Made by a program: the position numbers and the translations under genes. The notes beneath the pieces were generated by a model. The model did not search any database, had not been told where the DNA came from, and worked only from the letters and a program-made list of their open reading frames with translations. Shown here in pieces: positions 61,180 through 63,050 of a stretch of 64,000 bases of DNA. Each line of letters begins with the position of its first letter. Positions within the stretch are counted from its first letter, which is position 1. Source of the stretch: a virus; the IMG/VR virus record IMGVR_UViG_3300025704_000015, positions 1 through 64,000 of that record. The stretch is one strand, 5' to 3'.

Positions 61180-61377
61180 ATGGAAAAGATAGAAGAGCTA
61201 AAACAAAAGTATATTTTTGACCGTTTGGAATGCCTTAAGTGGGATTCAAAATATTACAAATATAAAAACACAAAGCTATCATCAGAGCTTGAAAAGAGCG
61301 AAGCTAAGCTCGTTGATATTTTAAAAGAGATTCGTGAACTTGAAAGTCTCCGTGTTAGACCAAAGAAAAATAAATAA
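61180..61377 (+). CDS. Small coiled-coil protein upstream of the tmRNA-like gene
   Basis: 65 residues of charged helix (KIEELKQKYIFDRLECLKWD, then SSELEKSEAKLVDILKEIREL). The stop lies three bases before the RNA gene, so this mRNA and the RNA must be separated by processing. No family recognised. Confidence 0.55.
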   Translation: MEKIEELKQKYIFDRLECLKWDSKYYKYKNTKLSSELEKSEAKLVDILKEIRELESLRVRPKKNK

Positions 61378-61380
61378 AAC

Positions 61381-61449
61381 GGGGGTGTAAAAGAATTCGA
61401 CGCTAGTTTCGGCTAACGGACCCGGGCGCGATACCCGGCACCTCCACCA
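61381..61449 (+). ncRNA. Miniature tmRNA-like RNA (tRNA-like domain only)
   Basis: 69 bases. GGGGGTG (61381-61387) pairs with CACCTCC (61439-61445), including a G3-U70 wobble, the alanine identity element. Discriminator A and encoded CCA end the molecule. The next 15 bases match the tmRNA D-region in length and in its GxATTCGACG core. A short stem TAGT-TTCG-GCTA with UUCG loop replaces the whole mRNA-like part. CGGAC precedes the T-arm, as in E. coli tmRNA. The T-arm CCGGG/CCCGG has loop CGCGATA (C56, G57, A58 kept, TT lost). No tag frame or pseudoknots. It is co-transcribed with the small genes and ends in a terminator. Confidence 0.82.
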
Positions 61450-61454
61450 TTTAA

Positions 61455-61497
61455 AATAAAAAACCCGCTCTGAATTAAACCAGGGCGGGTGTTTTTC
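61455..61497. terminator. Bidirectional terminator after the tmRNA-like RNA
   Basis: A 10-bp stem with one wobble pair (61463-61472 with 61481-61490) is followed by five T on the plus strand and preceded by a long A run (T run on the minus strand). It ends both the small-gene/RNA transcript and the converging minus-strand cargo operon. Confidence 0.9.
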
Positions 61498-62209: not shown

Positions 62210-62742
62210 TATTTTCCAAAGTACTGGGTTTGTAGAATTTTACCAATTGCTTTGATAAGATCTTTACCGTCAGCATTAGCTTCCCAGTCTTTAATAGCAT
62301 CTTTGTATGTGGAATGGTTCATGGCATCTTTTAAATATTCAACATCATTAGCAAGACCTTCAAACATCTTTGCAGCTTGGGTTTTTACCGTGCCTTTTAA
62401 TTTTGCTTCATCAAGTTCAATGCTTTCAACAATTTTACCTTTACTTAAATCTAAGATGGTTGGATAACCAATTTCCTTTGAAGTGCTTCTGTTAAACTCT
62501 GCTGCATGTTGCCTCGCTTTCTCAAGGGTTGGCGCAGTATGATAAATCTGACCTTTGTTATTAAATATATAGAAATTGTTTTTTGATTTAGTTGTCTTGG
62601 CAGTATCAATCATTTTATCAAGACTTGCAGAGCCATTTCGAACTGCCTTCCAGTTTGATCCTCTAGTAGCACCGTAACCATATCCTTCAAGGATTCCCCT
62701 TGCAGCATCCTCTAATGCTTGACTTTTATTTGATAAGTTCAT
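62209..62742 (-). CDS. Tagged late protein, family C, unknown
   Basis: 177 residues beginning MNLSNKSQALEDAARGILE|G. An internal L-D-E|A site near residue 115 divides it into an alpha-beta N-terminal domain (SKNNFYIFNNKGQIYHTAP) and a helical C-terminal domain (KLKGTVKTQAAKMFEGLAND). Two gp21-type sites suggest cutting into two products. Its start codon overlaps the stop of the upstream gene. Confidence 0.62.
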   Translation of the reverse strand: MNLSNKSQALEDAARGILEGYGYGATRGSNWKAVRNGSASLDKMIDTAKTTKSKNNFYIFNNKGQIYHTAPTLEKARQHAAEFNRSTSKEIGYPTILDLSKGKIVESIELDEAKLKGTVKTQAAKMFEGLANDVEYLKDAMNHSTYKDAIKDWEANADGKDLIKAIGKILQTQYFGK

Positions 62743-63044
62743 TTTAAAGAAATCTTCTTTAGATTTTTAATAAGAATTTCAAGATCACGCGCATTCAATT
62801 CAATATATTTTTTACCAATCGTGATTTGTACCATTTTACGATTTCCAATCTGACCATGCCCAAGCTCGGCGGGTCCAGTAAATTGTGTTAATTCGGCATA
62901 TTCTTTACCACTTTTACCCGCGCTTGTCCAAGCTTTAATTTTAGTAGCTTCACTCAGCTCTTCGGTTTCAAGCTCCTCATAAGTTCCTTCAAGGATTCCC
63001 CTTGCAGCATCCTCTATCGTTTTACTTTTATTTGATAAGTTCAT
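62739..63044 (-). CDS. Tagged late protein, family C, unknown
   Basis: 101 residues beginning MNLSNKSKTIEDAARGILE|G. The first 59 bases of the gene are nearly identical (55 of 59) to those of the gene at 62209, while the bodies differ. A second L-S-E|A site follows the acidic YEELETEE stretch. The body is related to that of 61514. Overlaps the next gene by four bases. Confidence 0.65.
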   Translation of the reverse strand: MNLSNKSKTIEDAARGILEGTYEELETEELSEATKIKAWTSAGKSGKEYAELTQFTGPAELGHGQIGNRKMVQITIGKKYIELNARDLEILIKNLKKISLK

Positions 63045-63050
63045 TGTGTT

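Follow-up and report, generated by a model that had tools for sequence, protein, structure and literature searches.

A phage gene for a tmRNA reduced to its tRNA-like domain, and its relatives in viral contigs

The window, that is, the whole 64,000-nt stretch of DNA analysed here, belongs to virus record G000, which is 79,754 bases long and encodes T4-like proteins, among them a large terminase, tail sheath, portal, DNA polymerase, helicase and ribonucleotide reductase. The closest portal proteins, about 50% identical, are those of Methylophilales phage Melnitz and phage C48C1. On the + strand, at 61381..61449, lies a gene of 69 nt including the encoded CCA for a tmRNA, the RNA that rescues ribosomes in bacteria, that comprises the tRNA-like domain (TLD) only, hereafter called a mini-tmRNA. 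It is preceded by a 65-aa ORF on the same strand (61180..61377), which stops 3 nt upstream of it and for which no family was found. A terminator-like hairpin followed by a T run (61463..61490, +) was detected 13 nt downstream in a consensus scan, which found three such sites in the region against 2.5 expected from shuffles. A PHROG search with ten neighbouring ORFs left nine without a match and gave one weak match, with no function for any of them, and no Pfam match exceeded the cut-off for five ORFs near the RNA.

Read directly in the sequence, the 5' part of the gene is GGGGGTG-TAAAAGA-ATTCGACG-CTAGTTTCGGCTAA-CGGAC, and the 3' part, after CGGAC, is CCGGG-CGCGATA-CCCGG-CACCTCC-ACCA (RNA position i is window position 61380+i; all parts are on the + strand). 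A first-pass annotation of this DNA had claimed an acceptor stem of 7 bp that contains G3-U70, followed by A73 and an encoded CCA, and these are indeed there: GGGGGTG (61381..61387, RNA 1-7) pairs at 7/7 positions with CACCTCC (61439..61445, RNA 59-65), the third pair is G-U with U70 at 61443, and the discriminator A73 and CCA follow at 61446..61449. The D-region core, the CGGAC and the 5-bp T-arm that it had proposed can be read just as directly. The D-region TAAAAGAATTCGACG covers 61388..61402 and has the equivalents of A15, U17 and G19 at 61395, 61397 and 61399; within the RNA, ATTCGACG occupies positions 15-22, at an offset from the acceptor stem that we take to equal that in E. coli tmRNA. 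CGGAC (61417..61421, RNA 37-41) holds the equivalent of A334 at 61420 and lies 5' of the T-arm (61422..61438, RNA 42-58), with its stem CCGGG/CCCGG and loop CGCGATA. Between the two halves, a stub of helix P2 (61401..61418, RNA 21-38) is predicted from constrained folding of the L005 RNA, which has the identical sequence, and from covariation of P2 in the family; it consists of C21-G38, G22-C37, one C-A mismatch (61403/61416), four pairs and a UUCG loop (61408-61411). Only 16 nt separate TTCGAC from GGAC, too short a distance to hold a tag frame or any pseudoknot. The claim that a UUCG hairpin replaces the whole middle of the molecule was therefore correct for the tag frame and pseudoknots, which are gone, but not for P2, the first pairs of which, C21-G38 and G22-C37, stay.

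The identity of the RNA was assessed with covariance models. Model R1 was built from alignment A2, which comprises mini-tmRNAs of 21 other phages, none of them of the window type. Against the 64-kb window it matched the RNA over its full length with 55.5 bits (E 1.1e-10; E-values are rough), and this was its sole match up to E 10. In a search of the record, RF00023 scored 46.2 bits (E 1.2e-18), 0.8 under its gathering cut-off of 47. Its alignment spans model positions 1-374, which means that the RNA is the TLD of a tmRNA minus the entire middle; the earlier placement of a TLD-only tmRNA at 61381-61449 proved right to the base. RF00023 found the same place, with 44.5-46.2 bits, in all 12 window-type records searched (14 are known). 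Its threshold was passed by 17 of 19 mini-tmRNA loci, the exceptions being the window-type L134 and L183, although L171, whose RNA reads identical to that of L183, scored 60.7 bits. In a scan of just 221 bases around the window RNA, RF00023 reached 18.2 bits and RF04321 24.4 bits, and RF02544 gave no match up to E 10. On the window, Rfam at gathering scores gave no match and ARAGORN no gene. Scanning 45 loci, ARAGORN reported no mini-tmRNA as such; at one of these it placed a 324-nt tmRNA over the L068 mini-tmRNA, the 5' end of which we read, by eye, as poorly paired, and the 83-nt form as paired at 7/7 positions. In G001, RF00023 has a further weak match, which overlies a tRNA-Met.

R1 was also run on 20 long records of phages with a related reductase, and matches at E 0.01 were obtained in ten. 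We read two of these as diverged mini-tmRNAs that keep G3-U70 (by eye), one at G017:15717-15785 (42.0 bits, 69 nt, a UUUA-capped stub and 6/7 acceptor pairs) and one at G020:66067-66145 (36.7 bits). The best match among these records (42.6 bits, in G018/G019) resembles a tRNA, and R1 scores near 40 therefore need reading by eye. The corresponding candidate at L337 1501-1579 and on the minus strand of L338, with that top score, is tRNA-like and has U3-A70; it was left uncounted. This L337/L338 gene lies in a phage tRNA array and is not called by ARAGORN; its D region has TTTCGAC, and its anticodon is probably CAU (by eye). Other R1 matches, with 19-30 bits in eight loci, mostly overlie ARAGORN tRNAs. 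Near the reductase gene of 72 related-reductase loci beyond the window type, nothing scored above 25.6 bits.

Relatives were collected from viral contigs with sequence patterns. TTCGAC, GGAC, C69, C71, C72, A73 and some of the T-stem were fixed in the first, the looser and the two open patterns described below and in the one for species genomes. The first pattern, in which U70 was imposed, found 13 contigs, 12 of them of the window type, and a looser one (C or U at position 70, 5' acceptor strand free) found at least 119 stretches. Two patterns with position 70 open and without a demand for CCA gave 56 and at least 120 stretches, and a pattern for the T-loop type of the window RNA returned the same 12 contigs among the matches listed. 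These lists are not exhaustive, since L263 carries the window RNA but is missing from those of the first and the T-loop pattern. For the 124 sites listed from the first two patterns, the 5' acceptor strand is complementary at 7/7 positions in 113 and at 6/7 or more in 115; for randomly chosen places in these loci, the shares are 0.36% and 3.6%. The sites dropped from this set were L004, L023, L024, L026, L063, L087, L097 and L104, with 3-5/7 acceptor pairs, and L069, with no upstream sequence.

The first-pass annotation had proposed searching related phages for the same element, and the pooled search with a strict pattern found it at no fewer than 223 sites. At least 222 were kept (only L023 was dropped), with at least 137 distinct sequences in at least 80 clusters at 85% identity, which are clusters of RNAs and not proven independent phage lineages. 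Cluster representatives among the matches listed are 64-84 nt long including CCA. Position 70 is U at 222/222 of the pooled sites listed; U was imposed in the first viral-contig pattern and in the pattern for species genomes, C or U was allowed in the looser one and any base in the two open ones, while G1-G4 were imposed in the species-genome pattern, in both open ones and in pooling. Of the 222 pooled sites listed, 134 encode CCA, a share that is raised because some patterns demanded it. The strict CCA-bearing pattern matched only four contigs in 84,980 species genomes, as against at least 130 CCA-bearing sites in viral contigs. L133, from a Prochlorococcus single cell, and the viral contig L089 are both 130,604 bases long, and the species-genome contig L131 has a large-terminase gene near the RNA, on the opposite strand. 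Judged by where its sequence occurs, the TLD-only tmRNA is a viral feature.

The genes around these RNAs vary. Among the matches listed, the upstream neighbour is co-oriented at 170 of the 208 sites that have one, and the downstream neighbour at 154 of 205. Mini-tmRNA genes were found directly 3' of a small-terminase (TerS) gene (L021 1015-1091), between the head protease and major head protein genes (L177 2466-2547), near a head protease gene (L164 7634-7712), directly 3' of an exonuclease gene (L171) and next to tRNA genes (L018, L052 and L055). Their location in the packaging and head block of L021, L177 and L164 suggests late, high expression in these phages; given the variety of contexts, the timing of expression may differ between phages. 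A packaging-RNA role, brought to mind by the copies close to terminase genes, was set aside, as the identity features of a tmRNA are retained.

Is the fold maintained? A MAFFT alignment of 35 sequences (A1) puts the 5' strand of the acceptor in the wrong place in sequences with a long D-loop, and hence both the model and the pair counts are based on A2, the 21 sequences of which were chosen for a 7-nt D spacer; counts over all distinct sequences were made by script. In A2, 98.1% of the cells pair, and 91 cells have changes on both sides, compared with 25.4 in shuffles and at most 16 with the structure slid along the alignment. Weaker measures gave ten both-side-changed pairs against 8.6 in shuffles (reached by 80 of 500) and 32 pair types against 28.0 (reached by 34 of 500). 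In 75 distinct sequences, 524 of 525 acceptor cells and 375 of 375 T-stem cells pair, with shuffle maxima of 458 and 319, the acceptor register having been picked by best pairing and the T-stem being partly fixed by the search pattern. The P2 stub has on average 4.71 of 5 flush pairs across the family, against 2.38 with shuffled partners. L007 and the window RNA differ at 3 of 69 positions, namely both bases of a compensatory T-stem pair (C-G to U-A) and the base of the P2 mismatch, and the aligned DNA around them is 75-87% identical. Stem covariation in relatives had been set beforehand as a check; it was found in A2 and in the 75 distinct sequences, and by these comparisons all three stems of the family covary. 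Taken singly, the window RNA folds with a z of -1.56 (12 of 200 shuffles fold at least as well). Its unconstrained single-sequence fold keeps the acceptor stem and lacks the T-arm, and constraining it to the TLD fold costs 3.7 kcal/mol relative to the minimum-energy fold (-22.1 vs -25.8).

The two loops appear linked as well. Among the matches listed, the D spacer contains GG in 80 of 82 relatives with UC at T-loop positions 55-56, in 7/7 with CC, in 1/1 with UA, in 1 of 14 with UU (GA in the other 13) and in 0 of 33 with GC. The GC class makes up 33 of the 137 distinct relatives listed, two of them of the window type, and 31 of the 33 have AG at a fixed place in the D spacer. The window type belongs to this class, with its AG one base farther from TTCGAC than in the other 31. 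Sequence comparison thus indicates that the D-loop and T-loop change together in the mini-tmRNA family. In tRNA, the elbow is held by the contacts 18-55 and 19-56, and the coupled classes agree with these contacts. The loss of the T-loop TT, which had been regarded as a possible weakness, is genuine for the window RNA but not isolated, as G-C is found in the 33 of 137 and is coupled to the D-loop change. Many forms of 80-83 nt (L182, L192, L201, L208, L217 and similar) have in common an inner hairpin of the AARRCC-GCAYGCGG-A type above the P2 stub; it is more conserved than a plain linker would require.

Named phages also harbour such genes. In the Streptomyces phages LuckySocke (listed host Streptomyces lividans JI 1326), GiJojo, pSt2308 and BRock, a mini-tmRNA gene lies within a tRNA array, and its acceptor (7/7) and T-stem (5/5) pair at every position; BRock has TTTGAC in place of TTCGAC, and phage Alone3 carries a partly decayed mini-tmRNA. 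Acceptor stems differ in four of the five (GGGTCTG, GGGTTTG), and G3-U70 is kept in all five (by eye). None of the five copies is annotated as a tmRNA, and as ARAGORN did not call the minis as such in the loci scanned either, such genes are readily overlooked. BLAST searches of single mini-tmRNAs against the phage collection matched for some queries and not for others. The matches in Lacusarx, RcSimone-Hastad and S-CRM01 are permuted tmRNAs rather than minis, and those in Enterococcus phages EfsSzw-1 (L253) and ZJGS2 (L254) and in Pseudomonas phage PA_L9 (L248) are long unannotated forms, of about 359 nt in the former two and about 241 nt in the latter by best acceptor pairing. Matched fecal scaffolds (L255-L257, unannotated) were not assigned to the minis. 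The full or two-piece tmRNAs of phages, as in Melnitz, Lacusarx, RcSimone-Hastad and the Enterococcus phages, have the TLD halves in common with the window RNA, and the 3' half in RcSimone-Hastad is 93.8% identical to that of the window RNA over 32 nt. Unlike the window RNA, however, they keep a coding part or a permuted order. The tmRNA of Rhodobacter phage RcSimone-Hastad (L003, around 1501-1660) is an unannotated permuted one with G at T-loop position 55, as in the window RNA.

The first-pass annotation knew of no described RNA of this kind, a statement that does not hold: DS6A, two plastid sequences of about 65 bp and mitochondrial tmRNAs without a tag frame are in print (PMC11915505, available text). 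The tmRNA of mycobacteriophage DS6A is called 'TLD only' (Mao 2009, as related in parts of PMC4131195 and PMC11915505), with a sequence that extends scarcely beyond the TLD (PMC4131195). As described there, it resembles the window RNA in being phage-encoded, in consisting of the TLD and little else and in lacking a tag frame, and the window RNA accordingly has the 7-bp acceptor, D-region and T-arm and no coding part. DS6A has a different host, and the comparison is one of description and not of sequence; the window RNA has a P2 stub capped by UUCG and a T-loop of the G-C class. The tag-less mitochondrial tmRNAs (jakobids, oomycetes; RF02544) and the plastid forms are, in the same partial accounts, also TLDs without a coding part. 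They are organellar, however, and the mitochondrial genes are usually permuted, whereas the window RNA is in one piece and in standard order. The TLD of Thermus thermophilus crystallised with SmpB (2CZJ) was made of 25 + 34 nt joined via a UUCG loop (PMC3929946, in excerpt), the same design as in the window RNA, but it was a laboratory construct derived from a cellular tmRNA.

Neither a canonical full tmRNA nor a tRNA, which had been named beforehand as explanations that would count against the reading, fits the same bases: the RNA totals 69 nt without tag frame or pseudoknots, it has no anticodon arm, and ARAGORN finds no gene. A permuted tmRNA (RF04321) does not fit either, as the 5' half precedes the 3' half in one piece and the terminator-like hairpin comes after CCA. 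Sequence evidence thus places the window RNA, as a real and structurally constrained gene, in a kind that is already known and thinly documented. In the literature searched, which covered few subscription papers, DS6A is the only phage named as having a TLD-only tmRNA and the breadth found here is unreported; it looks new. By the at least 80 RNA clusters and the Streptomyces phage copies, the kind appears to be common in phages, and the number of clusters suggests that many phages act on trans-translation via RNA.

With modest confidence, we favour the reading that this phage TLD-only tmRNA is alanylated, bound by SmpB and EF-Tu-GTP, and lowers host tmRNA activity during infection. On this view, the RNA would come from the end of a gene cluster on the + strand, the enzymes with which the host processes its tRNAs would trim it, alanine would be attached by virtue of G3-U70, and SmpB and EF-Tu-GTP of the host would bind it; it would then occupy SmpB, and probably stalled A sites. 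Without a tag frame, trans-translation could not be completed, so that SmpB would be held in competition with host tmRNA. Sequence comparison shows the TLD identity, the loss of the whole mRNA part, the conserved fold and the retention of the alanine-identity pair and the SmpB-contact bases; expression, processing, charging, SmpB binding and inhibition are what we infer. The alanine identity set G3-U70, A73 and CCA is present in the RNA, and AlaRS reads the third-pair G-U of the TLD acceptor (PMC8363625, in part). The same source places Trp122 of SmpB in a pocket of A15, U17 and A334 and has G19 contact SmpB too; all four bases are found in the window RNA (in the numbering used here). SmpB itself was found in none of the 12 window-type records searched, most of which are fragments. 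According to the available part of PMC4131195, an RNA similar to that of DS6A is a strong inhibitor of tmRNA whether or not it can be charged, and titration of SmpB is offered there as a possible cause; the inhibition is also told in PMC11915505, and the SmpB-decoy idea agrees with this precedent by analogy. Interference with host rescue is probably the purpose of the window RNA, and the earlier interpretation, an alanine-chargeable, SmpB-binding decoy or a tag-less rescue RNA, is partly supported overall.

The published inhibition works without charging, and yet G3-U70 is invariant, although pure SmpB titration would not need it. The constant pair suggests that charging matters and makes an additional role on the ribosome plausible. 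It is tempting to speculate that tag-less tmRNAs form a widespread phage system inside the ribosome, in which stalled ribosomes are taken over and untemplated alanine replaces the ssrA tag; we consider this possible but unlikely. The charged TLD with SmpB would enter stalled ribosomes and add one or more untemplated alanines without the tag; ribosomes would be freed or remodelled, and phage proteins would escape tag-directed degradation. G3-U70 at all 222 sites listed favours such an active rescue; against it, we know of no peptide-release route for a charged TLD-SmpB complex. In vitro, TLD and SmpB yield polyalanine without mRNA (PMC3929946, in excerpt), and tag-less mitochondrial tmRNAs co-occur with SmpB, but the sole relative tested inhibits tmRNA (PMC4131195 and PMC11915505, in part). 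If the on-ribosome reading is true, ribosomes and phage proteins would not be lost to host quality control, and the window RNA would represent a natural version with a UUCG cap. For an AlaRS and SmpB substrate, the family supplies naturally occurring variants, among them the coupled D-loop/T-loop swap, and makes it testable whether the RNA needs charging or SmpB binding alone.

It is improbable that the tRNA-like fold merely marks RNase P and 3' cuts in polycistronic phage RNA, with the free RNA having no job: many copies are intergenic with neighbours that are often co-oriented, and that of the window comes 3 nt after an ORF, but RNase P needs neither G3-U70, nor the tmRNA D-region, nor GGAC, and an ordinary tRNA would suffice. 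A decoy against host defences that cut tmRNA or tRNA or are SmpB-like seems quite improbable; CoCoNuTs contain OB folds that are SmpB-like and for which tmRNA binding is predicted (PMC11090510, available part), but we found no direct link between them and the window RNA. Even less credence goes to a functionless, decaying remnant of a full phage tmRNA, as might be imagined from the full and permuted tmRNAs of other phages and the partly decayed copy in Alone3, since the stems covary and two of the three changes in L007 are compensatory amid 75-87% identical DNA. That the RNA is an att fragment left from the host's ssrA, a gene at which integration is frequent (PMC11915505, in part), is hardly credible, as both TLD halves are present and joined in one piece and the tyrosine-integrase domain PF00589 occurs in 0 of 7 window-type records searched, most of them fragments (serine integrases lay outside the search). 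As for the DNA downstream of the RNA, a 61-bp direct repeat, 93.4% identical, lies at 62683-62743 and 62985-63045 of the window, at the ends of adjacent small minus-strand ORFs.
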